Origin: an uncultured Lachnospiraceae bacterium
GTDB taxonomy: Bacteria > Bacillota > Clostridia > Lachnospirales > Lachnospiraceae
Assembly: GCA_947626435.1 (NCBI GenBank)
Contig: CANQSB010000001.1
Span: forward strand, 124,001-188,000
Direction: 5' to 3'
Length of the DNA stretch: 64,000 nt
Part shown: positions 28,524-64,000 of the stretch, piece after piece
How the letters are laid out: the number at the start of each line of letters is the position of its first letter
How positions within the stretch are numbered: position 1 is the stretch's first letter
Position numbers and translations under genes: made by a program
The notes under the pieces: generated by a model
Seen by the model: only the letters and a program-made list of their open reading frames with translations
Databases searched by the model: none
What the model was told of the DNA's origin: nothing

Positions 28524-29510
28524 CTATGTTTCTCTTTCTTTTTCTGCTGTTTCAGTTTCTTTCATATAAGATTCCCTTTCAATATAAATCGGTCTGCCTT
28601 TAACCTCCATATAAATCCTTGCAAGATACTCGCCTATCATTCCCAATATGGTAATAATGACGCCTCCTAAAAACAACATCACAATCATTATGCCGGAATA
28701 CCCTGTCCTGACTACCTGTGGATTATGAATCGCACTAATATATAGCCTTATGGCGAAAACAAATGACAAAAAGACTACTAACATTCCTAAATAAACTACT
28801 CCCCTTAACGGGGTTGTAGCAAACGCTATAAAACCGCTATACGCATATTTGAGCAGTCCAAAAAAATTCCATTTTGTCTTACCCGCCGCTCTTTCTACAT
28901 TCTGGTATTCTATCCATTTATTTTTGTAGCCAATCCATGAATAAATCCCCTTAGTAAAGCGTTCCCTTTCTGTCATAGACACAATTGCCTCGGCAACATT
29001 CCTTTTCATCAGCCTGTAATCTGTGCTTCCCGAAACCAAATCTATTGAAGTAATATGATTCATTATATGATAAAAAGCCTTTGAAAAAGTGCTGCGTATA
29101 AACGGTTCACCCTTCCTCGAAACTCTACGTGCCGAAGCGCAGTCATACCCCTCAACTTCAATAGCATAAAGCATGTCATTTAAAAGCTCAGGCGGATGCT
29201 GTAAATCTGCGTCCATAAGCGCTACATAATCGCCACTGCATCTGGACAGTCCTGCATAAATCGCAGCCTCCTTGCCAAAATTCCTCGAAAACGAAATATA
29301 CTGTATCCCCCCCCCCCGAGTATTATCTGCGGAGGCTGATACAACCTTTTTTATCTCATAAAGCGTATTATCCTTGCTGCCATCATCTATATATGTTATC
29401 AGGAATTTATAGTCCTGTAATTTGTCAAATACCTCTAATATATGTTCATAAAACAGACGAACACATTTTTCTTCATTATAGCAGGGCACTATCAGCTCTA
29501 TTGTTTTCAT
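28524..29510 (-). CDS. GtrB-like polyprenyl-phosphate glycosyltransferase with an 11-G tract (328 aa)
   Basis: A GT2 domain with LIVPCYNEEKCVRLF, YIDDGSKDNTLYEI, SFSRNFGKEAAIYAG and VALMDADLQHPPELL (DxD), then two membrane segments and ARIYMEVKGRPIYI. It is the same layout as the gene at 19476-20462 and probably makes an undecaprenyl-phosphate sugar. Residues near 68-71 (RGGG) are coded by an uninterrupted run of 11 G at 29307-29317, just before the conserved SFSRNFGKE. With 11 G the frame is intact; gain or loss of one would truncate the protein before the DxD motif. Phase-variable expression is therefore likely (inference). The ATG at 29510 is used. Confidence 0.92.
   Translation of the reverse strand: MKTIELIVPCYNEEKCVRLFYEHILEVFDKLQDYKFLITYIDDGSKDNTLYEIKKVVSASADNTRGGGIQYISFSRNFGKEAAIYAGLSRCSGDYVALMDADLQHPPELLNDMLYAIEVEGYDCASARRVSRKGEPFIRSTFSKAFYHIMNHITSIDLVSGSTDYRLMKRNVAEAIVSMTERERFTKGIYSWIGYKNKWIEYQNVERAAGKTKWNFFGLLKYAYSGFIAFATTPLRGVVYLGMLVVFLSFVFAIRLYISAIHNPQVVRTGYSGIMIVMLFLGGVIITILGMIGEYLARIYMEVKGRPIYIERESYMKETETAEKERET
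29307..29317 (-). repeat. Homopolymer tract, 11 G on the coding strand
   Basis: An uninterrupted run of 11 C on the plus strand inside the GtrB-like gene. It codes for the end of an Arg codon plus three GGG Gly codons, in a linker between conserved strands. The gene is in frame at this length. Confidence 0.95.
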
Positions 29511-30017
29511 ATTGTTTCTTAGTTCCTTTCAACACTTTAGAATCTTTTACAATGCCACATATCCTCATTGCATCACATACAACAGTCTCCAAAATCTTCT
29601 GGGTATGCTGGTGCATATAGAACTTATATCCCAAATTCCAGCCATTAATCAATTCAATTTTTTCAGTCTGTCAAGCACATTCAATTTAATCATTATCGTA
29701 CGAATACACCTAAGCAAAACTCTATCCTTTAATGTTATGTTCGCATACACATCACGAACCGCTTTATAGCCTTTATTATGATATGTCGACCGGAATCTTC
29801 TTTTCTCATCTTCGTTTAGCTCAATGTTTCTTTTGCCCATTTTATGATGAGCACTTTCTACAAAGTCCACATACCCAGCAATTTTATCAATCTGGCTTAA
29901 CCCTTTTTCAGTATGATTAACCACATACGATATCCCATTTAGCTTTCCCGTTTTTTCACACAGCTTTTTCTCGCATTCCCACAAGAATGCACTTACTTTC
30001 CCGCACAGCCTGTAAAA
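29476..30017 (-). pseudogene. Decayed gene of unknown family with a frameshift at an A-run
   Basis: One frame (29649-30017) is open for about 120 codons without a proper start, and its visible part includes GYVDFVESAHHKMGKRN. It ends just after VLDRLKKLN. Inserting one base in the six-base T-run at 29658-29663 carries the reading into another open frame (IELINGWNLGYKFYMHQH...) that continues to a stop at 29476, overlapping the start of the GT2 gene in normal operon fashion. Further coding-like sequence lies upstream to about 30130 in other frames. I read this as the remains of a longer gene, probably of the glycan cluster; the family is not recognised. Confidence 0.5.
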
Positions 30018-30137
30018 TCAACATAACATATATCTATGACTAATGCCCTTATATGCAATAAAATCTGTTCAGTGTTTCTTTCGCAGAGGCTTTTGTTGCA
30101 TTTTGTCACCGCTCAAGCGAATTTCTGATAAAATCTT

Positions 30138-31061
30138 TTATTGTATAGGATGGCTCATCATTTTTTTTAATAACTCTTTTATTCCTATAAAAATTTTAAT
30201 ACAAACTAAATTCTGAAATATCTTATAACCTAAAAACTTCTGCATTATCTTGTGTGACTTATGCGATTCAAATGATATAGCATCATATTTTTTACTTAGA
30301 TAATCTAACATGTTATATTGAATTCCATTTCTGAAAAAAATAGTTCCTTCCCTCAAAGACTCCCAATTCCTTATACCATACTCATTTTTGTGAAAATATT
30401 CTACATATGTACCATATGTTTCAAATTCGCTAAAACCAGACTCGGCTATATCTTCTACCGAAATTGCCGAAATTATTTTTTCCCAAAAACAATCTCCTTG
30501 AAGCGTATCATTTTCTTCTATCTTTTTTATCAGCTCTCTCATTATCTCTTTATCAAATAGCATATGCTCTGATATAAAAGAATAATTATTTGACTTCTCC
30601 AGAAACGGAAACAGTCTTTGTATTGTATCAAAATATGGCTTATGGTATTCTGTCTTCACGTCAAAAATCTTTAACCCATTTTCATACATATCTACCTTAT
30701 GTGTGGGAATTGTGTCTGAATCCCATACTAAGTATGACGAATCTTCACATATTAAAGCGTATGCCATCTTCAAAAACTGCTGAAAGTACCAACCTGCTCT
30801 ACATTCACTTGCGTCATCCGACCTTTCCTTCAACGCCCTTTTTATGCCATTATACCCCCCCCCTGTATTCAAAATAGTGTCTTCATCTAAAAAAATAATT
30901 TTCTTACTAATTCCCTCAATCTCTAACCTCAATTCTTTTTTCCCTATAATAATCAAGTTCTTTTTCAAAATATTTTTTTCAAAAAAATTATAATATTGGG
31001 GGATATTTTTAATTGTTTTATCAGTACATAGCATTACAACATCATATAACTCATTCACCAT
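30138..31061 (-). CDS. DUF6492-like putative glycosyltransferase with a 9-G tract (307 aa)
   Basis: A GT-A-like protein. VVMLCTDKTIKNIPQYY starts it, YLVWDSDTIPTHKVD carries a DxD motif, and MLFDKEIMRELIKKIE and YGTYVEYF follow. It resembles the DUF6492 family found in capsule clusters; no reaction has been established to my knowledge. The ATG at 31061 has AAGGAG 6 bases upstream and is preferred over a longer frame start at 31106. Residues coding NTGGGYNG contain nine consecutive G (30855-30863). One G fewer gives a stop within about five codons and one more within two to three, so the tract is a clean on/off switch (inference). It is on at this length. Confidence 0.82.
   Translation of the reverse strand: MVNELYDVVMLCTDKTIKNIPQYYNFFEKNILKKNLIIIGKKELRLEIEGISKKIIFLDEDTILNTGGGYNGIKRALKERSDDASECRAGWYFQQFLKMAYALICEDSSYLVWDSDTIPTHKVDMYENGLKIFDVKTEYHKPYFDTIQRLFPFLEKSNNYSFISEHMLFDKEIMRELIKKIEENDTLQGDCFWEKIISAISVEDIAESGFSEFETYGTYVEYFHKNEYGIRNWESLREGTIFFRNGIQYNMLDYLSKKYDAISFESHKSHKIMQKFLGYKIFQNLVCIKIFIGIKELLKKMMSHPIQ
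30855..30863 (-). repeat. Homopolymer tract, 9 G on the coding strand
   Basis: Nine C in a row on the plus strand, coding for three GGG Gly codons of the DUF6492-like protein upstream of its DxD motif. The frame is intact at nine. Confidence 0.93.
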
Positions 31062-31111
31062 AATTCGCTCCTTTTTCTGCCTAAGTCTATAATACAATAA
31101 CCTCAAAACAA

Positions 31112-32125
31112 CTAGCCATAAACTTTATTTTTCCTGTCATATCCCATCACTTTTAAACACAAATAAAATACTGCCATTATGCATACATAATACACATATA
31201 CAAAATGAAAGAGAAAAGTTAGATTTTTATGATAAATTGCAAGCCTAATGCTGTCTATTATTGGAATCGGAACAATCAGAGCATACAACACAAATTTCCT
31301 CTTTCTTACTGTCAATGCTTTATTTATATCGGCTTTTGTCGAAAAACCACCTTCGCTTTTGTAAAAGACATTATTTATCACCCTAAACTTAAGTTTTTCT
31401 AAGTATGTTTTAAATGAAGAACGACAATTGTGATGAATGTCATCTCCCTTAATGCATCCACACAATCCGGTATCACTTATTATTCTATCAAATGTATTGC
31501 ACGCAAATTCTATTGTATTAAATTCTTTCGGATATTTTTCTCTTACATAATCAACCGAAAAGCAAAATGTTCCGCTATCAGTTAAAGGATAAATGTCTGT
31601 ATTTTTGAATTTCATTACAGCACGATTTTTATTCTCCTCTATAATGTACTTTTTATAAGTTTCATATTTATCGTGTTTGGTATTATATATGAAGTAATTA
31701 AACGGATCGCCAAGCACATTTAAATAGGTGGCAGATATGCCGCACAATTTCTTGCGCCCTGCTATATATCTATTAGGAATAAGCACTTTTATATCAGGAT
31801 GCGACTTCAAAAAATGCATCTTATCATTTAATTGATCTACATACGAAAATTCTTCATCTGAATCCATTCTAAGCGCAAAATATCCTGAAGCATTCTCTAA
31901 CCCAATCGCTTTAGCATATTCCGGCAGTCGCTTGGGGTTATTTATTACGATTGCTCCAGCTCTTCTTGCCATTTGTATCGTTTTGTCTGACGAACCCCCA
32001 TCAACTACTATAACCTCAATATCATCCTTGCTGATACTTTGTTTTTTTATAGAAGCTAAGGTATATCCAAGTGTTGTCTCTGAATTATATGTTGGTATTA
32101 TAATAGAAAAAAAAGGTCTTTTCAT
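31112..32125 (-). CDS. GT2 family glycosyltransferase (337 aa)
   Basis: GT-A fold: FFSIIIPTYNSETTLGYTL, EVIVVDGGSSDKTIQMARR, RLPEYAKAIGLENASG and ALRMDSDEEFSY (DxD as Asp-Ser-Asp). A Cys-containing mid part (CGCIKGDDIHHNCRSS) and one or two hydrophobic C-terminal segments follow, suggesting membrane attachment. The ATG is at 32125. It lies between the flippase gene and the DUF6492-like gene, each within about 50 bases, so the three are one transcript. It probably adds one sugar to the lipid-linked repeat unit; donor and linkage are unknown. AT-rich codon use marks it as part of the mosaic segment. Confidence 0.9.
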   Translation of the reverse strand: MKRPFFSIIIPTYNSETTLGYTLASIKKQSISKDDIEVIVVDGGSSDKTIQMARRAGAIVINNPKRLPEYAKAIGLENASGYFALRMDSDEEFSYVDQLNDKMHFLKSHPDIKVLIPNRYIAGRKKLCGISATYLNVLGDPFNYFIYNTKHDKYETYKKYIIEENKNRAVMKFKNTDIYPLTDSGTFCFSVDYVREKYPKEFNTIEFACNTFDRIISDTGLCGCIKGDDIHHNCRSSFKTYLEKLKFRVINNVFYKSEGGFSTKADINKALTVRKRKFVLYALIVPIPIIDSIRLAIYHKNLTFLFHFVYVYYVCIMAVFYLCLKVMGYDRKNKVYG

Positions 32126-32172
32126 ATATAAATCGCCTCACATTATTTTATTATTTCAATATTCACAGTCAG

Positions 32173-33705
32173 TTACATAGGTTTACGCTTTATCATTTCT
32201 AACAATATATTTTTTATCTCTGCCAGTTCTTCCGACTTATAGTAAAACACTAATAATATGATGGAAGAAATCACTAATCCCAATATCATATCCACTATCA
32301 CTCCAAATTGCAGTCTGCCTGTCACCACCCAAACTATACATATTGACAAAGCATTAACAAAGCCGCCTTTTATGTATTCCATAAGGGCAAATTTCATAGG
32401 TAATTGAAAATAATATTTGTAAATATAATAGGTTTCAAGCGGGATATTTATTAATGCTAATGAAACTATTGTTGCTACCACGACACCTTCTATTCCCCAT
32501 ATATTTATAAATATAAGATTAAGCACAATATTTACTCCGGTTTCGAATAATGCTACCCACTTGCCCTCCCACCAAATGCCACTGCTGCTTCGCACCATAT
32601 CGCTGATAGATGATATGCACTTCAAATAAAAATATATTACGAATAAAATAGCTGTTCCATCAGTGAGCAAACCATCTTCCCCAGCATACATGAGCATAAA
32701 AGGCTGATATCCGCATACCATCAGCGCACTTGCAATAACAGATGCACACTCAACTACAAAAACTGACATCTTTGTTATTCCCAAATTATTTTCCCTTGAC
32801 TCTACGGCTACGGCGTTCCCCAGGCTAGGCAACACCGCTGTCGTAATACTGCTAATAAGCATACATCCTACCGTCATCACCATAATATAATTCTGATACT
32901 TAGCGGCATCTGCAAGCCCCAAAAATGCTGATACAATTATAACATCCACAGAAGCTCTGCATGCAGTGCGCAGCTTCGAAAACGAGAGACCGACAACTCT
33001 ATGTTTAAACTCATACCAAAATTTCCTGTCAAAATAATCCCTTTTAAATTTTGCCGGCACATATTGGGGAAATTGTTTTCTTTGCCGTCTGCCCGTCAGG
33101 AAGTATGCTAAAAATGTCCCTATTGGCAATAATGCCGCATATATATAAAAATTATGGCATACAGCCAACGCAATTATTTGAACACTATATGTTATTAGCC
33201 ACACAATCGAGCCATATTTGTGAGTAACCGATATATCCTGATTTGCCTGATAAACTGCCGAACTATAAGGATAAACCCAATAACTGACGGTAGCATAAGC
33301 AATATAAGGAATATATACAACATATATGTTTAATTCCTTTGGAGCGTTGCCTTGTATCAAACGCGGCAAAAATGGCATTAATACCAATGACGCCATTAAT
33401 ATCATCAAACCCAAAAATCTGTAAAATTTTTGATAAAGTGACAGTAACTGATTAGCTTGTACAAAATCACCTTTCGCCACAGGCTTATACATATTATAGA
33501 CAAGAGCTGTTCCTATTCCTAATTCGCTTATATTCAAAACATTTAGGATTGACGAGTACAACGATGTCAATCCTAAATACTCCATGTCCCAATAATGTAT
33601 TATAAACCGCCTAATCAAAAATGGCATAAATGATGTTACAAATATGCTGACATAACTCCAGATTAAGTTTTTAACTGTATGTTTTACTCTTACTTCTGTT
33701 GCCAT
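32173..33705 (-). CDS. Wzx-type oligosaccharide flippase (510 aa)
   Basis: About twelve to fourteen membrane segments typical of the MOP/PST flippase family. The start KHTVKNLIWSYVSIFVTSFM, then MEYLGLTSLYSSILNVLN and ELGIGTALVYNMYKP are close to the Wzx proteins of Gram-positive capsule clusters. It should move the undecaprenyl-diphosphate repeat unit across the membrane. The ATG is at 33705. The PglK-like ABC transporter at 46019 is a second candidate flippase in this window, so two export routes or two glycans may coexist (inference). Confidence 0.93.
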   Translation of the reverse strand: MATEVRVKHTVKNLIWSYVSIFVTSFMPFLIRRFIIHYWDMEYLGLTSLYSSILNVLNISELGIGTALVYNMYKPVAKGDFVQANQLLSLYQKFYRFLGLMILMASLVLMPFLPRLIQGNAPKELNIYVVYIPYIAYATVSYWVYPYSSAVYQANQDISVTHKYGSIVWLITYSVQIIALAVCHNFYIYAALLPIGTFLAYFLTGRRQRKQFPQYVPAKFKRDYFDRKFWYEFKHRVVGLSFSKLRTACRASVDVIIVSAFLGLADAAKYQNYIMVMTVGCMLISSITTAVLPSLGNAVAVESRENNLGITKMSVFVVECASVIASALMVCGYQPFMLMYAGEDGLLTDGTAILFVIYFYLKCISSISDMVRSSSGIWWEGKWVALFETGVNIVLNLIFINIWGIEGVVVATIVSLALINIPLETYYIYKYYFQLPMKFALMEYIKGGFVNALSICIVWVVTGRLQFGVIVDMILGLVISSIILLVFYYKSEELAEIKNILLEMIKRKPM

Positions 33706-33825
33706 TTATATTACCTGCTCTTTTGTAAAATTTTACCCAATATGTTCATGTCAGTCCTTATAACCTTCTTGAATATCATCAAAATTTTTCTCCCTACTTT
33801 TCGCAAACTGATATCCGAAAAATCA

Positions 33826-34623
33826 CTATTTATTTTGTTTAAAGCGATTAACAATATTTTGAATTTTTAAAATTAATTCAGGATTTATATCTAATATAGC
33901 TCCTTTTAAATATATTATAGCCATTTCCCAGTTTGTCATTATTGGTCTCTTGTGTCCATCAAGCTTAATCCCATTTCTATCGCAAAGCCTTGCACCTTCC
34001 TGCATCCATTTTCCTTTTCTTACGCCTTCAACATACGGAAATGAATAATCAAGCGCAACCAATATAGGATATTGTGTATTTGTCTTTCTCATTGAACCTA
34101 TCCTTTCAAAGTCCCAAGCACTCCAACCATCTTCTATTATTTCCGCTAAAAGCTTTGCATTCCAAATTCCCGGTTGAAGCGAAAGTGAATACCCCCCCCC
34201 GCCTATATAATACCCGATACTGCCGTCATCATAAATTCCGCCATATCCCCATGGGGAATACATAAGCCTTAAGTTAAGTGCATTATACTTTTCAATCCTA
34301 TCTATTTGTTTTTGAATGTCACCATTAGAAACATAATCGCATAAAAGATAATCATCCATCCAAAGCATAACATATTTTGTTGCCGTTTTATTAATAGCTG
34401 TCTTTATCATCTTATCCCAAGTATCATCCAACACTATAATATCATCAAATACATGGTTTTTTCCCTCATCATGATATTCATCCGTAATCAATACTACTTT
34501 ATATACGCAATCCGCCCAGTACTTGCGAAACAAAACAGAAAAAACATCCCACATATCCCTATTTTTCCAACAGGAATAAATCAAAATTGCCAATTCATTA
34601 CTTAATACCTTATTATAGTTCAT
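33826..34623 (-). CDS. Putative glycosyltransferase-like protein with a 9-G tract (265 aa)
   Basis: A soluble protein with a GT-A-like feel. ELAILIYSCWKNRDMWD starts it and KYVMLWMDDYLLCDYV contains a DD motif in the position of DxD. The segment GYYIGGGGYSLSLQPGIWN follows, then WSAWDFERIG. I do not recognise a named family with certainty. Glycosyltransferase is inferred from the pattern and the neighbours. The ATG at 34623 has GAGGT upstream. The Gly stretch is coded by GGC plus nine G (34192-34200). One G fewer leads to a stop about 18 codons later, before the WSAWDFE region, so the gene is probably phase-variable and currently in frame. Confidence 0.7.
   Translation of the reverse strand: MNYNKVLSNELAILIYSCWKNRDMWDVFSVLFRKYWADCVYKVVLITDEYHDEGKNHVFDDIIVLDDTWDKMIKTAINKTATKYVMLWMDDYLLCDYVSNGDIQKQIDRIEKYNALNLRLMYSPWGYGGIYDDGSIGYYIGGGGYSLSLQPGIWNAKLLAEIIEDGWSAWDFERIGSMRKTNTQYPILVALDYSFPYVEGVRKGKWMQEGARLCDRNGIKLDGHKRPIMTNWEMAIIYLKGAILDINPELILKIQNIVNRFKQNK
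34192..34200 (-). repeat. Homopolymer tract, 9 G on the coding strand
   Basis: Nine C in a row on the plus strand, coding for three of the four Gly in IGGGGYS of the gene at 33826-34623. The frame is intact at nine. Confidence 0.93.
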
Positions 34624-34744
34624 TCTTTGCGACCTCGTCTATATACAATTATTTTCATAACTTACTTCATAATCAATAAAATAACTTTTAACAAAACCGT
34701 TACCTTTGGTGATTTTATGTCGCGCCATGAGAGAGCCAATATCG

Positions 34745-35863
34745 TTATGGACTTATAATATGGTGTTGTCCTACCAGTATATTTGATATAAGCCGGGAAG
34801 GTCTTTCGTTTGCAGTACCCCCCCTCCCTATTTTGCCACTTTTATATTCATTTACAAATTTTCTAATATCACTTGCATCTCCATTAAAAAGCCGTGCATT
34901 TTTTCCAAGTCCTTCCTTGCGTTCAGTAGTCTTACGCATAATTAGACATGGCTTATTCATATAAAATAATTCCTCCTGATTACTGCCTCCGTCAGTAATT
35001 ACAAATCGAGCATTTCGCAACAGTTTCATAAAATCAAAGTAATCCACCCTTGGCTGCAAGATAATATTGTCTTCTTTATCCAACATATCCATTATGCCAA
35101 ATTTTTGTAACGCATTTTTTGTAATTTCATGAAGAATAAACACACATTTATACTGCTTAGATGTATTTATTATTTCAGCGACCACATCACACACAAATCT
35201 CTTATTTGCCAAATTTTCCTGCCTATGCATTACAAATACAAAATAATCATCATTAAAAATTTCCGCAATATCGCCGTCAACAGGGATATTTTCTGAAAAT
35301 CTAAGGCTATCTATCAATGTGTTTTGTTTTGTGTCTATAACTTGTCCCTTGACATTTTTTAAGTTCCGTGCAGGTTCATCACCTGGTGCAAAATGAATTT
35401 CTGACATTCTGCTGGAAATTAGCCTGTCTATTTCCTCCGGAAACGGATTAAATAGATTATGGGATCTGAGTCCCGCTTCTACATGACATACCCTCATCCC
35501 GAGCTTTTTGCCAACCATTGCCCCCATCATTGTTGATACAGTATCTCCATGAATAACCATATACGCGCCTTGAAGCTCTTTTCGCCCAAACTCGTCCCCT
35601 ATTACTTTTGCGGCCAGTTTCTTTGTTTTTATAAACCACTTCATAAGACCAATCGCGTTTTTGGTTATGCTTTCTTCTTTTGACAGCTCTACAAATTTAC
35701 CATTTAACTTTATAAATTTCATAATGCGGCTTTTTGTAATATCATTTTGCCCTGATGCTATTATGTTACACACTGCGCCATTATTCTGGCATTCTATTAT
35801 CACTGGAAATACTTTTATAAACTCCGCTTCAGTGCCAATAAAAAAATATATGCTCTTTCCCAT
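34745..35863 (-). CDS. UDP-N-acetylglucosamine 2-epimerase family protein (372 aa)
   Basis: A WecB-fold enzyme (GT-B-like) that makes UDP-ManNAc from UDP-GlcNAc in family members. Visible motifs: MVIHGDTVSTMMGAM, CHVEAGLRSHN, FPEEIDRLISS, FVMHRQEN and VITDGGSNQEEL (usually DSGGIQEE, so slightly divergent). The ATG at 35863 with AAGG upstream is preferred over a frame extension to 35899. The C-terminus departs from the family just after a seven-G run (34818-34824): GRGG-TANERPSRL and then a stop. One extra G would give a tail about 40 residues longer that ends at 34662. It may supply ManNAc for the GT26 at 12136 (inference). Confidence 0.88.
   Translation of the reverse strand: MGKSIYFFIGTEAEFIKVFPVIIECQNNGAVCNIIASGQNDITKSRIMKFIKLNGKFVELSKEESITKNAIGLMKWFIKTKKLAAKVIGDEFGRKELQGAYMVIHGDTVSTMMGAMVGKKLGMRVCHVEAGLRSHNLFNPFPEEIDRLISSRMSEIHFAPGDEPARNLKNVKGQVIDTKQNTLIDSLRFSENIPVDGDIAEIFNDDYFVFVMHRQENLANKRFVCDVVAEIINTSKQYKCVFILHEITKNALQKFGIMDMLDKEDNIILQPRVDYFDFMKLLRNARFVITDGGSNQEELFYMNKPCLIMRKTTERKEGLGKNARLFNGDASDIRKFVNEYKSGKIGRGGTANERPSRLISNILVGQHHIISP
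34818..34824 (-). repeat. Homopolymer tract, 7 G, near the 3' end of the epimerase gene
   Basis: Seven C on the plus strand. The three possible frames after it give different C-termini: the present one ends at 34745, one G fewer ends sooner, and one G more extends to 34662. Shorter than the other tracts, so the slippage rate would be lower. Confidence 0.8.
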
Positions 35864-36027
35864 AGCTCGCCCTTCTTTAATTCCAAAGTAACTCCCCACC
35901 AGTCAATATATTGGGGAAACATTCCATTAAGCATCTTAAATACTACTGCCAGCATAGGCATGGAATCTGTAAAAACCACTGAGTGTTTCAAGAGAATACC
36001 ATTCTACAATTCCACCACGAAAATGCA
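35864..36027 (-). other. Intergenic stretch with possible decayed coding sequence
   Basis: Directly after the acyltransferase stop there is a short frame, ATG-initiated in a TAATG arrangement, reading MHFRGGIVEWYSLETLSG. A second frame then reads VVFTDSMPMLAVVF and later DWWGVTLELKKGE into the epimerase start. Joined by a frame change they look like the end of a lost gene. The family is not recognised, and this could be chance. Confidence 0.3.
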
Positions 36028-37113: not shown

Positions 37114-37119
37114 CAATTG

Positions 37120-37133
37120 CCCCCCCCCCCCCC
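37120..37133 (-). repeat. Homopolymer tract, 14 G, at the acyltransferase ribosome-binding position
   Basis: The longest tract in the window: 14 C on the plus strand. On the mRNA the G-run ends 6 bases before the ATG at 37113 and can pair with the CCUCC of 16S rRNA through G-C and G-U pairs. It would also be read in frame from an upstream ATG at 37149. Confidence 0.95.
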
Positions 37134-37178
37134 AATAAAACTTTTTCATAAAATAACATTAATCTTGAGCTAAAACAA

Positions 37179-37412: not shown

Positions 37413-37481
37413 TTTTTACCTGCATAAAAATCCATAAATATTACAATCCCAAGCCTAAGAGAATACTGTGTTGTTATGCAC

Positions 37482-50627: not shown

Positions 50628-50633
50628 CTTTAT

Positions 50634-53933: not shown

Positions 53934-53961
53934 GCTGCGACCTCCGCTGAATGGCATTTGG

Positions 53962-54696: not shown

Positions 54697-54769
54697 CATC
54701 TGCTCCGTTTATTCACAAATCAATTTATATTCCTTCTCCTGCCCGTAAAAACGCGCCTTACAGCCCCGC

Positions 54770-55978: not shown

Positions 55979-56799
55979 TAATACCGATTCCTTTTTAACA
56001 AAATTTTAATCCATGCCCTCGACTGCTTCACCGCCTCCCATCCCATGCCGTTTTGAACCATATACCATAGCTTAAGCCTGAAAAACAGCTTCGATTCCGT
56101 TTTTTTCAACCTGTACATGCTTGACGCGGTTATTGACTTGTCCGATATTCTATAGCATACCAGTTCTTTGTCAATAAGTCCGCAACGGTATCCAAGATGC
56201 ATTACTTTCAAATTCATAGGATAGTCCTCAAACCAACGGTAATTTTCATCATATCCGCCAACTGCCCTTACCGCCTCCATAGGATAAAACGAGCCTGACG
56301 GCGCCACAATACGGTTTTGCTTCAAAAGCATGCCGTACTGTTCCCTGTAATCCTTTTGTGCGAATTCATAACAACCGTTACAGTATCTTTGAACCGACGC
56401 AAAATCTGCATTTTCACTGCCAAACAGCTTTGCCCTGGCAATAGGAATTGCTCCGGGATTTTTTTCACAAAAGCTTACATACTCCTCTATTGCTTCAGGA
56501 ACCATATAATCATCAGCGGCTATAATTTTTAAATACTCCCCTGTCGCTGACTTCAACGCCCTGTTTATATTGGACGGTATTCCACCATTCTGCGGAGCCG
56601 TGACAAGCTTAACTGCGTAAAGCCGTTCCTTATTCCGCGCAATCCAATCCCGCACTGTCTGCACTGAATTATCCTTTGAACAGTCGTCTGCTATAATCAG
56701 CTCTATGTTTTTATATGTCTGGGCTTTTATGCTGTCAAGGGTTTCTGTGATTGTATCTGATGAACAGTATGAAATCACTATAACTGTAACAAGCTTCAT
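55978..56799 (-). CDS. GT2 family glycosyltransferase (273 aa)
   Basis: TVIVISYCSSDTITETLDSIK, ELIIADDCSKDNSVQTVRDW, GGIPSNINRALKSATGEYLK and KIIAADDYMVPEAIEEYV (the DD in the DxD position), then YDENYRWFEDYPMNLKVMH with the acidic ED(Y/F) pair seen in many capsule GT2s. The ATG at 56799. It follows the Wzy-like gene by 6 bases and overlaps the downstream GT4 by one base. Cytoplasmic repeat-unit assembly. Confidence 0.93.
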   Translation of the reverse strand: MKLVTVIVISYCSSDTITETLDSIKAQTYKNIELIIADDCSKDNSVQTVRDWIARNKERLYAVKLVTAPQNGGIPSNINRALKSATGEYLKIIAADDYMVPEAIEEYVSFCEKNPGAIPIARAKLFGSENADFASVQRYCNGCYEFAQKDYREQYGMLLKQNRIVAPSGSFYPMEAVRAVGGYDENYRWFEDYPMNLKVMHLGYRCGLIDKELVCYRISDKSITASSMYRLKKTESKLFFRLKLWYMVQNGMGWEAVKQSRAWIKILLKRNRY

Positions 56800-56805
56800 C
56801 GAAAA

Positions 56806-57963
56806 TCAACTCCCTTTTGCAAGCTTAAACGGCAGCCTCCATAAATATTCTTCTTCCGCCGTCCGGGACATAAGCGGCCAGTACCGGCAGCAGCCAAGCC
56901 ATATAAGCAGATAATTTCTCAGCAGATATACGGAAATCAAATGCGCCTCCATCAATGAAAACACGGAATACGCCACAACTATTACCGTCAGGCAGTAATC
57001 CCTTTTCTTATACGAGTACCATATCAAATACAAATTGGCGCATATATATAATGCTCCTATTACAATGCCGTACCAATAAAACAGCCTTATAAATCCCTGG
57101 TCAAAATACTCCTGATTTTCCGGCATTGCAAAAAGCTTCCAGTTCACAAGCCTGGCATTTTCATGTATATATGAATACTGAAACCTCCCGTTAAGGAGCT
57201 TATCCAGCCTGTACATAAAATCCGTACCGGTGCCCACGGCAGCGCCATATATTGAAAATACCGCCATTATCAGTACGACTGCCGCCGCGCCGATGTATGC
57301 AAGCCTGCTTTCACGAAGCCATGTGCAGTATTTCAGTAGCGCCGTGCCTGCCAAAAGGGCATTTAAAACAATAAACGCCGTATTGGAGTCCGTAAAACAG
57401 TATACTGCCAGATTAACGGCAAACAGCGCCGCAAAATGTATCAGCTTCATCTTCTGCGCATACAAATAAATAACAAGTGAAATTATCATAAATACCATGC
57501 AGTGAAACGCATTAGGATGTCCCATCCCAAAGCAATACCTGGTCTCAATGCATTCCCTCCCAAAATCCGCCGTAACCGATACCGCCCCATACAGTCCCGT
57601 CAGCGATAAAATAACAATCGCAATCGTACCGCTCAATGTTACCGCAAGTATCAGCTTTAAAATTTTTTTCAAATCCACATCCTTGCATGCCACAACCAAG
57701 GCAAACGCGCGGACAGCTTCATCGCGCGTATTTATCAGATATGACAATACTGCGACCGTCCCAATTGCCAGCATGCAGACGCACTCGGCGCGCGAATATT
57801 TTGTCGTGACGATTTTTATGCAAAACAACAAAAACGCCGCCCTGAAAATAAAGCTCTCATACGGGTTTATATACGCACTTTTATCAATAATCACAGCAAA
57901 CAGTTCAAAAACAACCGCCGTCCAAAAACAAGCGTTTCCTAATGTCCTTATTTTCGTTTCCAT
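56806..57963 (-). CDS. Wzy-like polysaccharide polymerase (385 aa)
   Basis: About ten to eleven membrane segments with one larger outside loop near residues 240-300 (DKLLNGRFQYSYIHENARLVNWKL). Phe-Gly-Met-Gly-His-Pro-Asn-Ala (FGMGHPNAFH) near residue 145 and a late outside segment are the layout seen in Gram-positive Wzy/EpsG-type polymerases, where such proteins join repeat units outside the membrane. Sequence in this family is poorly conserved, so the call rests on topology, motif and context. The ATG at 57963 has GGAG 8 bases away and is preferred over a frame start at 58008. Confidence 0.75.
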   Translation of the reverse strand: METKIRTLGNACFWTAVVFELFAVIIDKSAYINPYESFIFRAAFLLFCIKIVTTKYSRAECVCMLAIGTVAVLSYLINTRDEAVRAFALVVACKDVDLKKILKLILAVTLSGTIAIVILSLTGLYGAVSVTADFGRECIETRYCFGMGHPNAFHCMVFMIISLVIYLYAQKMKLIHFAALFAVNLAVYCFTDSNTAFIVLNALLAGTALLKYCTWLRESRLAYIGAAAVVLIMAVFSIYGAAVGTGTDFMYRLDKLLNGRFQYSYIHENARLVNWKLFAMPENQEYFDQGFIRLFYWYGIVIGALYICANLYLIWYSYKKRDYCLTVIVVAYSVFSLMEAHLISVYLLRNYLLIWLGCCRYWPLMSRTAEEEYLWRLPFKLAKGS

Positions 57964-58007
57964 TACATACTCCAACAATTTACCGCAGGTCCCCCGGCAC
58001 TGAAGCA

Positions 58008-58982
58008 TTATTCCCCTTTACCCGCCAAAAGCCTGTGTTTTATAAAGCATCTCACGCTTTCCGCAAATTCGGCTGTTCGTTTTTTTAAATAAACGCCCGT
58101 TTCTATATCAAGCGCCCTCGCCTCCCTTAAGCCTTTATTATATTTAACGATAAATTTCCCCGCAAAATATTCCCTGCACTCGCGCGATTTGCTCAATCCG
58201 TATTTTGTGTACATATATTTATAGTCGTTATAAATCCGCTCATCTTTTTCCGAAAAGCTCTCAGTATATTGATTTTCATGTACGCCTATCGCAACCAACG
58301 GCTCCTGCGTGTATGCAAAATTGCTGTTTTTCTCAAGCAAATCAAAATACAAAAACATATCCGATGCCCAATTGCTCCGCTCGTCAAAAAGCGCTAATGC
58401 CCCGCCCCGGCGATATACGGTCGCGCTCGGCGCTCCTATCTGATTGCTCAGAAAGAGCCTCCTGTAATCCTGTCTTAAACCTGCTATATAATCCGCGGGA
58501 GCATATCTGTCATATGAAGAAATCTTGTGCCCACTTGTAATGTGCCGCACATTTCCCGTCGTCTGTCCATCTAACATCACCTGCCTGCTTCCTGAAAAGG
58601 CAAGCAATGCTGCGGGAGAAGCATCAAGCATAGACACAAACTTGCCAAGACTCCGCCCATCAACAAACCAGTCATCACTGAACATTATTTTAATGTATTC
58701 GCCCTTCGCCATTTTAATGGCGGCATTCCAGTTAAAAATGTGCCCGAGCGGCTTCGGGTTGTGGATGTAGTTTAAGTTCAATGCTGAATATTTACTGATA
58801 AGCCTTTCAATCTCATTATTCGTGGAATCATCGGATATATTTACCTCATAGTCTTCATATTCCTGTATCACTATCGACTCCAAAAGTCGTCCAACTTCAT
58901 CAGCATTGTTATATGACGGCACGCAAATTGATACTTTGACCGGTTTTTTTGCTTCCATATGGTTTTGCATTGCCTTTCTCAT
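58008..58982 (-). CDS. GT2 family glycosyltransferase (324 aa)
   Basis: VSICVPSYNNADEVGRLLES, VNISDDSTNNEIERLISKY, NAAIKMAKGEYIKIMFSDDW (DD in the DxD position) and LLEKNSNFAYTQEPLVAIG. The catalytic region is standard, and the last 50 residues are basic (KKRTAEFAESVRCFIKHR), perhaps for membrane contact. The ATG at 58982 overlaps the stop of the GT17 gene (ATGA), so the two are co-translated. The donor is unknown. Confidence 0.92.
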   Translation of the reverse strand: MRKAMQNHMEAKKPVKVSICVPSYNNADEVGRLLESIVIQEYEDYEVNISDDSTNNEIERLISKYSALNLNYIHNPKPLGHIFNWNAAIKMAKGEYIKIMFSDDWFVDGRSLGKFVSMLDASPAALLAFSGSRQVMLDGQTTGNVRHITSGHKISSYDRYAPADYIAGLRQDYRRLFLSNQIGAPSATVYRRGGALALFDERSNWASDMFLYFDLLEKNSNFAYTQEPLVAIGVHENQYTESFSEKDERIYNDYKYMYTKYGLSKSRECREYFAGKFIVKYNKGLREARALDIETGVYLKKRTAEFAESVRCFIKHRLLAGKGE

Positions 58983-59929
58983 TTTTTTAGCAGCTTTAAA
59001 ATCACGCGCTTAACCGTGGCAGCCATTTTGTAACACATGTTCTTTATTGTGGCTTTTGCCTGCCGCAACCCTTTTACTGCCGCGCTCTCCTCATGCATTA
59101 TAAGGAAATCCAGCTCCTTTTGGTGTTCCCTTATATACCGTGGGAATGTCCCATCTATTTCGCATCTCACAAACTTGGCATTTCTCCCGAATATGTCCTT
59201 GCCATCCTTTATCCGGTCAGTAACCTGCGACAACACATAACGTGAGTTGTACTCCTGATGTGCCGCTGATACCACTTTTTCCTGCACGCGCTTACGGATA
59301 TCCTTCTCGCCATGACCGCCCATATAGCCAAAGTGCCAGCCTCCATCGTCAACACGTATGCCTATCTCCTTACGCTCTGGGAAACGCAACTCACCCAAAA
59401 GCAGATTTTGCTCCCTCAAAAGCTTATAACTCAACATCTTGGTCCCTATCCATTTTTTATGCTCCACGCCGTCAAACTCGCCCGCATATGACAGCAGATT
59501 GCCGGAAACCTCCTCCATATTCAGATAACAGTAAAAAAGTCGCTGCGCAAAATGATAAATCTTATCGTCCTGAAAATCCGCCAGAATCTCGCGTATCTTG
59601 TCAGGATTAGGTATCTCGTCCAAATCGCTGAAGATTATCACGTCATCATCTGTACAGCCCGCAAGGCCTCTTGTCACGGCATTTTTCTGAAAAGTATCGC
59701 GCTCGTGGGTGCCGCCCTCAGGCGTGTCTTCCACAACCACATGTATAATCTTGTCCGCAAATTCAGCAAACATTTCCTTATTTTCTTCATAATAAAGCGG
59801 TTTCTTAATACCTGAAAAAGTCTCCGTCGCCTCGCTTATCACAAATCTGTCGACTACATCATTTAATACATTTAACCTTATCTTCAGCATATCCAGCTCA
59901 TTAAAAAATTGAAAGCAATCGTATACCAT
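58979..59929 (-). CDS. GT17 family glycosyltransferase (316 aa)
   Basis: Matches the N-acetylglucosaminyltransferase-III-like family (GT17). MVYDCFQFFNELDMLKIRLN starts it; DRFVISEATETFSGIKKPLY, RDTFQKNAVTRGL, DDVIIFSDLDEIPNPDKI with the D-x-D-E-x-P motif, and GGWHFGYMGG follow. Eukaryotic members add bisecting GlcNAc; bacterial ones occur in surface-glycan clusters. The length is typical of the bacterial form. The ATG at 59929 follows a 98-base gap after the DUF5672 gene, with no clear promoter. Likely adds a hexosamine to the repeat unit (inference). Confidence 0.88.
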   Translation of the reverse strand: MVYDCFQFFNELDMLKIRLNVLNDVVDRFVISEATETFSGIKKPLYYEENKEMFAEFADKIIHVVVEDTPEGGTHERDTFQKNAVTRGLAGCTDDDVIIFSDLDEIPNPDKIREILADFQDDKIYHFAQRLFYCYLNMEEVSGNLLSYAGEFDGVEHKKWIGTKMLSYKLLREQNLLLGELRFPERKEIGIRVDDGGWHFGYMGGHGEKDIRKRVQEKVVSAAHQEYNSRYVLSQVTDRIKDGKDIFGRNAKFVRCEIDGTFPRYIREHQKELDFLIMHEESAAVKGLRQAKATIKNMCYKMAATVKRVILKLLKK

Positions 59930-60027
59930 TATATTATTTCCATTTCCGCGTTACTGCCCATACGGCATAAATTATATTTCAGTGCAAAACGCTAAGCTTT
60001 ACTGCAGCTTATCTTTACCCATACACG

Positions 60028-60801
60028 CTAAATTATTTTTCTAACAGCCCCCTTAATCCGGCGAGCCACAGACGGCTTAAAGAAATTGGGGTACTGCGCA
60101 TTAGTGCCCTCCCATTTGTGAAAAGCAAACGGCGTTATCCCTTCTATCTCAGGTATCATTTTCTCATGACTATAATATTTCGCCACATCAAGCGGCGCTA
60201 TCTTCATGCCTTGCGCCTCCAGCAGGTGGCGTATTTTACAGCAGATAAAGCCGTCCTCATAATACCACATTTTACCATACGCGTATTCTCCTGTCCATGG
60301 TATATTGGCTTTTTTGGGGTAATCCATGAGGCGCTTGCTCCTTATGCCCGCACTGTTGCCCACGCGGCAGATATTTCCATTGATGTCGCGGTAGGTAGTC
60401 GTGTCACCCTCGGGCGGAAGCGGCCACGGCGCGCCGATATAATCATATTCCAGAAACTCATCACGCCACATGCCGGGATTTACCACAAAGCCGTCAGCAT
60501 GAACAATAAGCGCAAATTCCGTATTTATGTGCGAACCGAGCTCATACACCATCTTGTAGTTAAAATCGTCAATATTTTTCAGCTTGTCCGTGTGGGAATA
60601 ACGTATGCTTTTTGGAAGTCCTAACGGCTTTCTGTGCGTTATAAGCACGGCATCGCCAAACTCAATGCCGCGCATGCTGTATTCCATAGCTTTTATGGTT
60701 TCCATCATATTCACGCTTGACATTGCCGCAAGCGTGACCTGCGGAAGCTTTAGCTTTGAGCCGTTACTTTCCAAATTTCCCTCACCCCCGATTATTGCCA
60801 T
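60028..60801 (-). CDS. DUF5672-like putative glycosyltransferase (257 aa)
   Basis: VTLAAMSSVNMMETIKAMEY, FALIVHADGFVVNPGMWRDE, LEYDYIGAPWPLP, RVGNSAGIRSKRLMD and YEDGFICCKIRHLLEAQGMK are the recognisable blocks of the DUF5672 family, which is predicted to be a GT-A transferase. HADGF stands in the DxD position. The C-terminus is basic (SVARRIKGAVRKII). The ATG at 60801 overlaps the end of the GT11 gene by 10 bases, implying coupled translation. Function inferred from fold and neighbours. Confidence 0.82.
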   Translation of the reverse strand: MAIIGGEGNLESNGSKLKLPQVTLAAMSSVNMMETIKAMEYSMRGIEFGDAVLITHRKPLGLPKSIRYSHTDKLKNIDDFNYKMVYELGSHINTEFALIVHADGFVVNPGMWRDEFLEYDYIGAPWPLPPEGDTTTYRDINGNICRVGNSAGIRSKRLMDYPKKANIPWTGEYAYGKMWYYEDGFICCKIRHLLEAQGMKIAPLDVAKYYSHEKMIPEIEGITPFAFHKWEGTNAQYPNFFKPSVARRIKGAVRKII

Positions 60802-61850
60802 TTCTTTTTTGCAAGCCTCAACCTTATCTTTCGCTTTACCGCATTCCAGTAACGCACAGCCATATATCTTTTATAAATATAGGCTGCTTTTTTATATGCC
60901 CTGCTTTTTTCACTTTCTGCCATAGGAATATTCAGCCGACTGTACAATTTGGACTCTTTCTTATATTTTTCCAGTTCTGCCCTGCATTCTTCCGCGTCAA
61001 AAAGTCTTCCCTGCCTGTCCTGATACATCCATCCCTGATATATGTTTTGCTCCGATGCCCAGTACCCATCAGAAACATTATGCCTTGCCCAATATTTCGG
61101 CGCAATTACTTTTTTTACCGTATTGCTTGTAAATACCGGAAAATAAGTAAACGATGAGTTTGACAGCAGCAAATATTTAGCGTTTTTTATTATGGAATAA
61201 TCCTTCGCTAAATCAAAATTATACGCCTTGACGTTTGGAATAAGCTTCTGCGCCTCTTTCACGTCATTTGTAATAATCATAAACTGCATTTTAGGATTAA
61301 TTTTACGCATATTTTTCATGCCGTTGAGCCAATATTTCTTGTTCAGGAACAGTTCTGGTGAATCCATATAGTCGGTACACCTCAGATGAATAATGCACAA
61401 ATCATCCCGGCTGTAATCATAACAGTCATATTCCGGCTTAACCTTAAGCCATCTGCATATTTCTTCCCTATAAGGCAGGAAATAATCTTCTGCCTGCATA
61501 TTTCCGTATACAAGCACGGTATCCTTCATGTTTAAAAGGACTTCATCCGTACCTGCCACATATGCGCCGTGCTCTATGTCATGCCTTGAGTTTGATGTAA
61601 AAAGCCTGTCCTCTTTCTCATTGTAAATCTTATCAAAGTCCTCTTTCCGCGTCGGCACTCCAAGCTCAAGATTCATAAAATAAAGCCCGCATTGACTGTG
61701 AATATTATTTGCAAGCGTTTCGCCGCCAAGAATACTGTAGTCGCAACCGTTACGCATAGCTATGCACCTTGTCGTTACATAGCAAAAAAGCTGATTGCCA
61801 AGTCCCTGCCCTTTAAGTAGTTCAGTCGCAATAATTGGTTTATCTGACAT
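60792..61850 (-). CDS. GT11 alpha-1,2-fucosyltransferase-like protein (352 aa)
   Basis: LLKGQGLGNQLFCYVTTRCIA at the N-terminus is the GT11 motif G.GLGNQ(L/M)F. CIIHLRCTDYMDS is the HxR-type donor-binding motif (often HxRRGDY; here HLRCTDY). LLSNSSFTYFPVF is the family SNSSFSWW-like stretch. GT11 enzymes transfer L-fucose, and some bacterial ones transfer other 6-deoxy sugars. No GDP-fucose genes are in the window, so the donor may be made elsewhere or be another sugar (inference). The ATG at 61850 is used. Confidence 0.87.
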   Translation of the reverse strand: MSDKPIIATELLKGQGLGNQLFCYVTTRCIAMRNGCDYSILGGETLANNIHSQCGLYFMNLELGVPTRKEDFDKIYNEKEDRLFTSNSRHDIEHGAYVAGTDEVLLNMKDTVLVYGNMQAEDYFLPYREEICRWLKVKPEYDCYDYSRDDLCIIHLRCTDYMDSPELFLNKKYWLNGMKNMRKINPKMQFMIITNDVKEAQKLIPNVKAYNFDLAKDYSIIKNAKYLLLSNSSFTYFPVFTSNTVKKVIAPKYWARHNVSDGYWASEQNIYQGWMYQDRQGRLFDAEECRAELEKYKKESKLYSRLNIPMAESEKSRAYKKAAYIYKRYMAVRYWNAVKRKIRLRLAKKKWQ

Positions 61851-61864
61851 CTAATTCCCCCGTT

Positions 61865-64000
61865 TTAATAAAATTCTCCAAATTCACGATATTCGCCTGT
61901 ATCCTCCCAATTGGTAAAATCTCTTGAATTTCCTATAATTTTGTACACTTTTGCCTTCGTCTGGATGCCGTTTTCAACAACAGAATAGTAGTGGTAACGC
62001 GCACGCTTCTTATCCTGTCCTTTTGCATCAAGCAGATTAATTCCCCACTGCTTATCATATTCAAGTCCCATTGCCGCCGCAAGTGTCGGTAACAAATCAT
62101 TTTGTGAAGCTCTTATGTCTGACACGTTCCCGGCAATGCCGTTAAAATACCCCCCCCCCGGTTTGATGAGCAAAATCGGATTCGTGGCTTGTTCAAGCTC
62201 TTTCAATACAAAATTTTCGCCATGGTCAGCGGTAATAATAATCGTAGCTTTGTCATACACGCCAAGTCTTTTAAGCTCCGTAACATAATCGCATACAAAT
62301 CGCATACAGCCAATATACTGCTCTACAGGGTCACATTCCCCTTCTGAAATCCTTTCGCCTTCCGCATTCATAGTATAAGGCGCGTGAGCCCCTCTGGTAT
62401 GAATAAAGCGAAACGCTTTATCATCATTGCCAAGCGTCAAACCATTTTCTTTCAATTGCCGATATAGCTCGGAATCCTCGCCTTCATAACTTGGCACATC
62501 AAGTATTTTTCTTTCAACAATCATGTCATTGATATCATCGGCAGTATAGGTGTAATATTCCTTATAAGCATATGGTAAAAGTCTGTAAGCCCCAATTTTT
62601 GCCATAGCCTGTATACAGCCACTAAATGAAATGTTTTCATCAACAACGCAGCCTTCACGCACAAAATTTTTCGCCCCTTCACTCACTGCGCTCCCTATAA
62701 TGTTCTCATCTTCCTCATATATATAATACGAATAATCACTCTCCCGAAGATTTCCCCAAAATTCACACTTTTCAAACGCCTTATCCACATAATCGCCCAG
62801 CGACTCCTCATAAAAGTGCATTTCTTCTGTGAGCATATACGGAATCGAAGGAAATGTCCTTGAAAACTGCGACACATTATCCGGAAAATATATAAAGTCC
62901 TGCAACGGCTTAAGGATATTAGGATCTTTTTCCAACGCCTGCTCCAAAAAGTCAACATCATAAGTATCCAGCACAAAAACTATGACATTCTTGTCCCTAG
63001 CCGCCTCGTTGATTCCCCGCTCAGAAAAATAATTGCGATATGTCTCCTCGTAGGATTTTCCCTCATCCAAATACGACGGAATAAGCGACACGCAGCCAAC
63101 TGTCTGCATTGCGCAGAGCGCTAACGAAACACCCGTAATTATTTTCTCTATACTTTTTTTCATGCACAGACAAAATCCGAAAAGTGCAGCCGCCAAAATG
63201 CACCATATTAATAAATTTATTATTTTAAGGCTATCCGACCATTCTGACTTTTTCCCTTCCATCAAGAACAATTCGCCATTAAGCAGCATCCCTTGCAAAT
63301 AAGCGCACAGCGAAAATCCCCATACAATGCAGCAAAATATCTTACGTTTTTTCTCAGGAAAAATCAGCATTGCCGCCAATAGGGAAACTGTCAGCAATAC
63401 ACCAAAACCAACAAAACGCCACCAGACCTGTCCAAAAGTAAATTCAAACTCATCTGCATTCGCAAGGAGCGTTTCAAAGGTCGGAAACAGGAAAAAATTC
63501 GCTGAAACAAGCACTGCTGCCGCGACTTCACTCAATTTAAGCCTGCAGCCTTTTACGCCATTCTCCCAAACTTGTATCCCAAAGTAATAAATCAACACTA
63601 TAATGCCAACTAACAAAATATTTTTAGGCATTAAAGTCATGTAAACCGCGGTATTAAAATTCTTATATTGTATGGCAAACCTTGTAAACTGTACCGCTAT
63701 TACAACCAAAAGCACAGCACAGGCAAATGTACCTTTTTTTGAAGCTCCATGTGTATAATAGCAGAATGCCGATACGCCGCATACTACGGTGACATCCATT
63801 ACAAACAGGTACCAGTCATTATCATATGCATATATTTCCCCGCCTGCCAGCAACAGACATCTGGAAACATTTATTCCCCAGAAGTTAAAATACATGCATA
63901 ATACAAGCGGATAAATCATGCCCGCATCCCTTGTCTGCCTTTTATGTGAAATCAACGCCGCGACTACGCTGGCGCCTCCCGCTGCTGATAAAAGCACTTG
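61865..64000 (-). CDS. Sulfatase-fold membrane transferase with a 10-G tract (N-terminus probably off the right edge)
   Basis: Membrane segments fill roughly the first 300 visible residues, followed by a large outside alkaline-phosphatase-superfamily domain: KNVIVFVLDTYDVDFLEQAL (metal Asp), SRTFPSIPYMLT (nucleophile-type Thr), FIHTRGAHAPY and IIITADHGENFVL. This is the layout of phosphoethanolamine/phosphoglycerol transferases and LTA-synthase relatives that decorate surface glycans. The frame is still open at the window edge with a GTG at 63997, so a little of the start may be missing. Near the C-terminus LLIKPGGGYF is coded by ten G in a row (62150-62159). One G fewer or more gives an early stop, removing the last 80 or so residues, so activity is probably phase-variable. 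Confidence 0.87.
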   Translation of the reverse strand, partial: QVLLSAAGGASVVAALISHKRQTRDAGMIYPLVLCMYFNFWGINVSRCLLLAGGEIYAYDNDWYLFVMDVTVVCGVSAFCYYTHGASKKGTFACAVLLVVIAVQFTRFAIQYKNFNTAVYMTLMPKNILLVGIIVLIYYFGIQVWENGVKGCRLKLSEVAAAVLVSANFFLFPTFETLLANADEFEFTFGQVWWRFVGFGVLLTVSLLAAMLIFPEKKRKIFCCIVWGFSLCAYLQGMLLNGELFLMEGKKSEWSDSLKIINLLIWCILAAALFGFCLCMKKSIEKIITGVSLALCAMQTVGCVSLIPSYLDEGKSYEETYRNYFSERGINEAARDKNVIVFVLDTYDVDFLEQALEKDPNILKPLQDFIYFPDNVSQFSRTFPSIPYMLTEEMHFYEESLGDYVDKAFEKCEFWGNLRESDYSYYIYEEDENIIGSAVSEGAKNFVREGCVVDENISFSGCIQAMAKIGAYRLLPYAYKEYYTYTADDINDMIVERKILDVPSYEGEDSELYRQLKENGLTLGNDDKAFRFIHTRGAHAPYTMNAEGERISEGECDPVEQYIGCMRFVCDYVTELKRLGVYDKATIIITADHGENFVLKELEQATNPILLIKPGGGYFNGIAGNVSDIRASQNDLLPTLAAAMGLEYDKQWGINLLDAKGQDKKRARYHYYSVVENGIQTKAKVYKIIGNSRDFTNWEDTGEYREFGEFY
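62150..62159 (-). repeat. Homopolymer tract, 10 G on the coding strand
   Basis: Ten C in a row on the plus strand: the last base of a Pro codon plus three GGG Gly codons in the sulfatase-fold gene. In frame at ten. With eleven, a stop follows within three codons of the tract; with nine, a stop follows within about fifteen. Confidence 0.95.

Follow-up and report, generated by a model that had tools for sequence, protein, structure and literature searches.

A set of long poly-G tracts, dense in the surface-glycan locus of the 64,000-nucleotide stretch analysed here (the window) and found throughout the genome that contains it, very probably acts, judging from sequence, as slipped-strand contingency loci controlling surface glycan and surface proteins. 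The window corresponds to C1:124001-188000 in a 3.70-Mb genome (98 contigs, 95.8% complete), referred to below as the window genome; G-numbers denote other genomes, L-numbers sequence stretches and C-numbers contigs. Its bacterium is taken to be a Gram-positive, Clostridia-like gut organism, from gene content (for example a GH25/choline-binding protein gene, present among those searched with Pfam) and from the view of an earlier sequence-based note on this DNA, the original prediction. The tracts are in excess of chance, are placed in particular genes and promoters and are biased in the functions they accompany; genes are cut at them, similar promoter copies differ in their length, and they recur across the genus.

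The simplest explanation is slipped-strand mispairing. In this proposed mechanism, copying of a run of 9-15 G would gain or lose one base far more often than copying of ordinary sequence. A slip inside a glycan gene would shift the frame and turn the enzyme off, or on again, and a slip between the -35 and -10 elements would change their spacing and with it promoter strength; with ~30 such sites, a single clone could carry its surface glycans and proteins in many different combinations. Tract length would thus be expected to change within one population, reversibly, altering the surface. Switching of this kind had been put forward in the original prediction, and it gains support from the excess over chance, the clustering in glycan loci, the frame breaks at tracts and the spacers of surface-protein promoters. 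The prediction had placed the set in a single glycan cluster; the window cluster does hold one, but that scope was too narrow, as the set extends across the genome and the genus, promoters included.

All five long runs first noticed in the window are present, with lengths of 11, 9, 9, 14 and 10 and with G on the coding (-) strand and C on the + strand (see the table). These five C runs of at least 9 compare with 0.29 expected from a first-order Markov model (Poisson P 1.3e-5). Four are indeed internal, in frame and coding for three to four glycines. The 14-mer sits in a 5′ leader: there is an in-frame upstream ATG at 37149, and the Acyl_transf_3 match begins only after the likely start ATG at 37113, leaving the tract outside the enzyme proper. 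Two 7-mers that had been counted with the set were rejected as contingency tracts, being within chance expectation (the window should contain 4.2 runs of 7 or more); at 42483 the G033 homologue has an identical string of codons. The accompanying argument that GGG is little used was too strong, given that GGG makes up 1102 of 6707 glycine codons (16%) in background open reading frames (ORFs) and 221 of 1122 (20%) in the window. Strand bias alone is also weak evidence: the G of the tract lies on the coding strand in 75 of 75 cases against 89% in the background (P 3e-4), and runs of five or more G are already commoner than those of C on coding strands (139 versus 17).

Features of the surface-glycan locus and its G runs, in window coordinates
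Feature	Position	Strand	Evidence or context
Surface-glycan locus	26391..63997	-	Pfam; some genes common to tract-rich loci of G033, G034 and G035
GT2 glycosyltransferase gene with G11	28524..29510	-	Pfam Glycos_transf_2, 5.5e-30
G11 tract	29307..29317	-	in frame in GT2 gene; TRGGGI, Arg-Gly-Gly-Gly in a loop of variable length
DUF6492 gene with G9	30138..31106	-	Pfam DUF6492, 1.8e-7
G9 tract	30855..30863	-	in frame in DUF6492 gene; NTGGGYNG
Gene of no Pfam family with G9	33826..34623	-	61% homologue in G033 locus
G9 tract	34192..34200	-	in frame; YYIGGGGYSL
G7 run	34818..34824	-	UDP-GlcNAc 2-epimerase gene; judged ordinary
Acyltransferase-3 gene behind G14	36028..37113	-	Pfam Acyl_transf_3, 6.1e-16
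G14 tract	37120..37133	-	5′ leader, 6 nt before likely ATG (37113) of acyltransferase gene
G7 run	42483..42489	-	judged ordinary; TGG GGG GGA codons identical in G033 homologue
Membrane sulfatase-fold gene with G10	61865..63997	-	Pfam Sulfatase, 1.5e-8
G10 tract	62150..62159	-	in frame in sulfatase-fold gene; IKPGGGYF

Across the window genome there are 30 G runs of 9-15 and 16 runs of 7-8, so that the longer outnumber the shorter, opposite to what a geometric tail would give. A further 400 kb of DNA from this genome, taken as arbitrary stretches after the tract positions were known, has no G/C runs of 9 or more, one of 8, and one A/T run of 9 or more. Six of the 30 tracts cluster at C1:153-196 kb (the window locus, 43 kb) and eight at C17:36-66 kb. 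At least one run of 9 or more occurs in 32 of 38 genomes of the genus, unevenly distributed (0 to 174 overlapping matches), and loci elsewhere that contain the GT2 orthologue are also tract-rich, with ten tracts in G034, seven in G033 and six in G035. Past the tracts in G034 there are three genes with 89-96% identity to genes of the window.

It is extremely improbable that these runs are artefacts of the sequencing or assembly of poly-G on Illumina machines. Junk-like G-rich contigs are seen elsewhere (G219, G272 and G016 C49) and some contigs end at tracts, but in the window genome a single run, of 15, ends a contig, all others being contig-internal and most of them flanked by coherent genes; one site recurs in another species, and both promoter placement and the genes downstream are non-random. 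Contigs that stop at G tracts are G006 C24 (start) and C35 (end), G033 C63 and C120 (start) and G000 C17 (end), and such ends may reflect length heterogeneity or sequencing drop-out. At G016:C49:17917-17961 (L267), runs of G20 and G33 separated by a C and followed by N are a probable assembly artefact, and both were excluded from all counts.

The genes concerned are largely those of surface glycans. By Pfam, the window locus encodes GT2, GT4-type, GT17 and GT-D proteins, a UDP-GlcNAc 2-epimerase, a DegT aminotransferase, ABC exporters, an acyltransferase and a sulfatase-fold protein; the GT2 product is presumably GtrB/DPM1-like, and we take the DUF6492 protein to be glycosyltransferase-like. 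Tract genes elsewhere in the same genome include MBOAT, YfhO, DUF6044, PMT_2, epimerase and ATP-grasp members, as well as FkbM and other methyltransferases, a formyltransferase, a hexapeptide transferase and a GT4 protein. In a tally by the usual roles of the families, 18 of the 30 tracts are inside or ahead of genes of a kind that often serves glycan synthesis or decoration, or 22 if DUF6020, DUF6044, DUF6492 and ATP-grasp are added, with three further tracts in promoters and five at genes of no family or not identified. This bias is a gene list, in which only Acyl_transf_3 was counted against the genome total: of its 11 genes, four have a tract, three inside and the window one in the leader.

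Two leader tracts, the window G14 (37120-37133) and L042:539-547, occupy the position of a ribosome-binding site, 6 and 10 nt before the ATG of an acyltransferase and a GT4 gene respectively, with ATTGAT within two bases after each. Upstream of the G14 tract, window positions 37150-39400 include sequence similar to the terminal part of an AAA-ATPase gene (39386-41026). The AAA-ATPase/PDDEXK genes (24256, 37482) look like repeated insertions, the first being 95-96% identical in G034.

Genes are also broken at tracts. With 60 nt on each side, 100 tracts of up to 16 nucleotides were classified, in stretches picked for tracts from the window genome and eight genomes of the same genus. Of these, 51 are read through in frame and 24 split the frame; the rest comprise 14 at a 5′ edge, six at a 3′ edge and five of other kinds. 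A one-base change would alter translation at the 75 that lie within an open frame or where a frame breaks. The L045 tract of the window genome, counted here as in frame, in fact belongs to a promoter upstream of the true start. Frame splits are far more frequent than at control runs of G5-6 on either strand (8 of 223; Fisher 8e-8), and dropping three G036 tracts that are near-copies of G007 tracts gives 23 of 97.

When the two pieces of 15 of the 24 split cases were searched separately with Pfam, five proved to hold complementary parts of one family. These are a DUF6020 gene in L032 of the window genome (181-277 and 324-587, the first piece weak at E 0.0017); a GT4 gene in L046, also of the window genome, divided into its N and C domains; WcbI in L261 (3-86 and 133-204); YfhO in L269 (281-522 and 633-832); and Methyltransf_23 in L264 (10-59 and 77-163, the first piece weak at E 0.008). 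A methyltransferase gene in L042 of the window genome is broken at its tract, whereas a G035 homologue of 75-77% identity is in frame through this site, the run being G9 in both with a one-base difference beside it. Outside the 100, sulfatase-family copies in L314 and L317 (G033) and L318 (G019) change frame at G11, G9 and G10, respectively. Nine of the cases examined, three of them in the window genome and two resting on a weak piece, thus read as one gene cut at a tract. On and off versions both exist, as cut and in-frame tract genes, when species or paralogues are compared.

A second form of the tract lies in promoters. Three tracts of the window genome stand between TTGACA and TATAAT, with spacers of 16, 19 and 20; those of L036 and L045 precede LRR_5/BspA-type exported proteins, and that of L048 lies 219 nt upstream of an ORF without a Pfam match. 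A scan of one genome per species (84,980 species), with counts resting on the matches listed, found this design in at least 119 stretches, against an authors' estimate of ~4 in uniform random sequence. Among the 80 listed matches that bear a title, 44 are unclassified Clostridia or Bacilli, many from the guts of rabbit, deer and other animals; other listed matches are Saccharibacteria, spirochaetes, Streptobacillus and a Helicobacter. Across 391 genomes from the class, the design is present at 11 sites in seven genomes, three of the sites being in the window genome, and a reversed control pattern at none. A phage origin of the design was rejected, only two stretches lying in viral contigs, a set in which records near the window genome may be absent. 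Downstream ORFs were found for 113 of 126 listed tract promoters, and 85 of the 113 begin with a signal-like N-terminus and have no more than two hydrophobic stretches besides, compared with 73 of 333 control ORFs (P 7e-24). The assignment uses a simple rule of hydropathy, and the controls, taken from the same stretches, were chosen more strictly (150 aa and a ribosome-binding site).

The spacing of these promoters is unusual. Plain TTGACA/TATAAT pairs in the same listed stretches peak at a spacer of 17 (14 of 29), whereas tract promoters have 17 in 7 of 126, with 33 at 15-16 and 68 at 18-19 (Fisher 1.5e-7 versus plain pairs; related genomes make these samples non-independent). The deficit persists with one promoter per locus (7 of 119), and shuffling G numbers among the listed promoters predicts 17.5 at this length (P 0.0008). 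None of the 11 sites in the class genomes is at 17; the spacer is 14 once, 16 three times, 18 and 19 twice each, and 20 three times. Tract promoters therefore avoid the 17-base spacer, and their assembled state is usually one or two bases off the usual optimum. G-rich spacers could instead have a different optimum, which would leave the two peaks unexplained. Length differences are also seen between similar promoter copies in one genome: three of seven pairs have unequal G numbers, namely G8/G12 in L123 (alike upstream only), G10/G9 in L093 (alike on both sides) and G10/G11 in L075.

The tracts further share a flank. TA directly follows the run in 18 of 29 tracts of the window genome and in 61 of 71 from the genus; among control runs of G5-6 it does so in 23 of 255. 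For TAT the counts are 14 of 29, 42 of 66 (the genus set differing slightly) and, in controls, 13 of 254. Among in-frame tracts, TA occurs in all three codon phases (15, 14 and 10, or 39 of 51), which makes it a rule at the level of DNA and not a requirement for tyrosine; easy melting at TA steps is a guess as to its cause. In the order the rule is weaker than in the genus, with TA after 80 of 150 tracts listed from part of 295 genomes, junk-like contigs included. Within single order-level stretches, such as G260:C31:15117-19734, several tracts have TATTTTGA in common after the run, and other tracts stand between AAATTTA and TAAAATT, so flank types may differ by family. Two other ideas found no support: that the flanks are target-site duplications of an inserted element, as tract-free homologues align without a gap at L255+7271 and window 34192 (the GT2 tract, unlike these two, does lengthen its loop), and that intragenic tracts are hidden promoters, the sixth base of a -10 element not being conserved.

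The codon phases also bear on the idea that the tracts are neutral strings of Gly-Gly-Gly codons, kept by the needs of the protein and by G-rich coding strands, which is very improbable. The G-richness of coding strands noted above would favour such strings, and some tracts do replace glycine motifs, for example the mixed-codon RGGGG of a neighbouring paralogue. Neutral strings, however, would account neither for runs of 9 or more exceeding those of 7-8, nor for tracts in promoters and 5′ leaders, frames that break at tracts, a tract that replaces mostly non-glycine residues, or a 3′ TA independent of codon phase.

Comparison with relatives suggests that tract sites come and go. The G11 of the GT2 gene is absent from all 15 genus orthologues fetched (56-74% identity), whose loops are shorter and mixed-codon; one further match (70%) lies outside the 15 compared. 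Where the sulfatase-fold protein has KPGGGY, nine of nine homologues (36-50%) have KP-x-G in mixed codons, and one of these, L314 of G033, has a G11 of its own at another site, where its frame is broken. The G9 at 34192 replaces RLGEP of the G033 homologue without a gap, the adjoining tyrosine being already present. Since sites with a tract in the window lack one in homologues and the loci are nonetheless tract-rich, sites appear to turn over as the locus keeps its tracts. The original prediction had named mixed glycine codons in close relatives as a finding that would refute switching; mixed codons do occur at two window sites, in homologues that are only 36-74% identical and hence not close relatives.

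Another reading is that the tracts are mainly recombination seams, at which a G run with AT-rich flanks guides the exchange of glycan cassettes and switching is secondary. At L039:6906-6915 and L250:15780-15788, identity with G034 is 95% from the tract onwards over the 2.6 kb compared, into an operon that we take to resemble neuDBC. Upstream, the two have different genes, both of which end shortly past the tract, and the tract thus forms the seam. This is one clear case among 103 tract contexts compared, and promoter tracts would be left unexplained, making seams a decidedly improbable main role.

Several observations weigh against slipped-strand switching at these tracts. In-frame coding tracts outnumber split ones by 51 to 24, above the third expected of free drift; the pieces belong to different families in two of the 15 Pfam-searched splits, L260 being read as two genes and L034, with a C2185-like N domain and a methyltransferase, being perhaps one fused gene or two; and in eight of the 15, the L042 methyltransferase among them, only one piece matched Pfam. 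Homopolymer errors in the assemblies could also fake some splits. As to length, a DNA search of L042 across the genus for variants at the same locus matched across a tract only in G035, and this single tract site common to the two genomes is G9 in both; in the closest pair among the genomes compared, G007 and G036, all three common tracts are of equal length within flanks 99.9-100% identical; and G numbers are equal in four of the seven promoter pairs (L097, L106, L125 and L161). Finally, MutS1 (C74:98-2710) and MutL (C74:2843-4711) are both present in the window genome, over cut-off. Many G tracts in surface-glycan clusters, one feature of Campylobacter/Helicobacter-type phasomes, are thus found here and another, reduced mismatch repair, is not, and with repair intact, slippage rates should be below those of Campylobacter. 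An ~800-aa match, which we take to be MutS2-like, occurs in most genomes of the genus, including the tract-rich G034 and G035, and is missing from the window genome, G033 and the less complete G009.

These points bring into consideration slippage of RNA polymerase or the ribosome on the G run, by which a fixed DNA length would yield mixed full and cut proteins. Transcriptional slippage can occur on G runs of this length (9 or more), and the predominance of in-frame tracts, the presence of mismatch repair and the equal lengths in G007 and G036 would all fit. It is nevertheless improbable, as it leaves unexplained both the tracts in -35/-10 spacers and the unequal G numbers in similar promoter copies. 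A stronger form of the slipped-strand reading is doubtful but worth stating: the tracts may be a specialised hypermutable element with its own DNA flank rule (TA or TAT after the run, in every codon phase and likewise at edge and promoter tracts), whose length in promoters is set so that the spacer misses the 17-base optimum, in most cases by one or two bases. If so, a lineage-wide feature would create or maintain tracts there even though mismatch repair is intact, and many gut-bacterial surface proteins would rest one or two slips from fully on.

Poly-G phase variation has been studied best in Gram-negative pathogens, with scattered cases in commensals. In Neisseria promoters of the porA/opc type, poly-G or poly-C between the -35 and -10 elements tunes transcription; the design described here differs in occurring in many other genomes, before exported proteins, and in avoiding the 17-base spacer. 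For Campylobacter jejuni, the excerpted reports describe a strain with 23 variable genes and nine further candidates (PMC9561416) and on/off frameshifting of cgtB (PMC6437147). The likeness lies in the long G runs of its capsule, LOS and O-glycan cluster genes, as far as the excerpts describe them, which parallel those in the glycan genes here; the window genome differs in keeping MutS1 and MutL, in adding consensus-promoter tracts and in being, as judged from its genes, Gram-positive. In the accessible text on sortase-pilus genes of Bifidobacterium breve, intragenic G10/G11 tracts have measured slippage and change length in vivo (PMC9187656). This too is a gut Gram-positive with intragenic G tracts, confined in that text to two pilus clusters, whereas ~30 are found here, many in glycan genes, and promoters are included.

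Gardnerella is a vaginal genus outside the Clostridia, and Akkermansia belongs to an unrelated phylum. Per genome, Gardnerella has a median of 20 G/C tracts of 8 or more, ~70% of them upstream of ORFs, with surface proteins among the targets, in an account whose available part shows no focus on a glycan locus (PMC11287997). The exopolysaccharide gene Amuc_1413 of Akkermansia muciniphila is truncated by a change from G9 to G10, with mixed reads, according to the excerpted report (PMC13055324); it is likewise a G9 tract in an exopolysaccharide gene of a gut commensal, but there, as excerpted, it is one gene and not a set. Among the matches listed from the open-access literature, none describes phase variation by poly-G tracts in Lachnospiraceae or any other Clostridia, and the accessible portions of PMC12413058 and PMC6437147 contain nothing on Clostridia tracts. 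The slipped-strand mechanism is known in kind, and it is the scale, the promoter tuning and the flank rule that look new.

Taken beyond those pathogens and scattered commensals, the present case is a large tract set, spread over loci for surface glycan and promoters for surface proteins in what is judged to be the genome of a Clostridium relative, with a promoter form that reaches at least 119 stretches of public genomes, many from uncultured gut bacteria. If the tracts switch, consensus assemblies would miss variation of the surface at the level of strains, and may call such genes broken. The system also offers a handle on how bacteria proficient in mismatch repair keep hypermutable sites.

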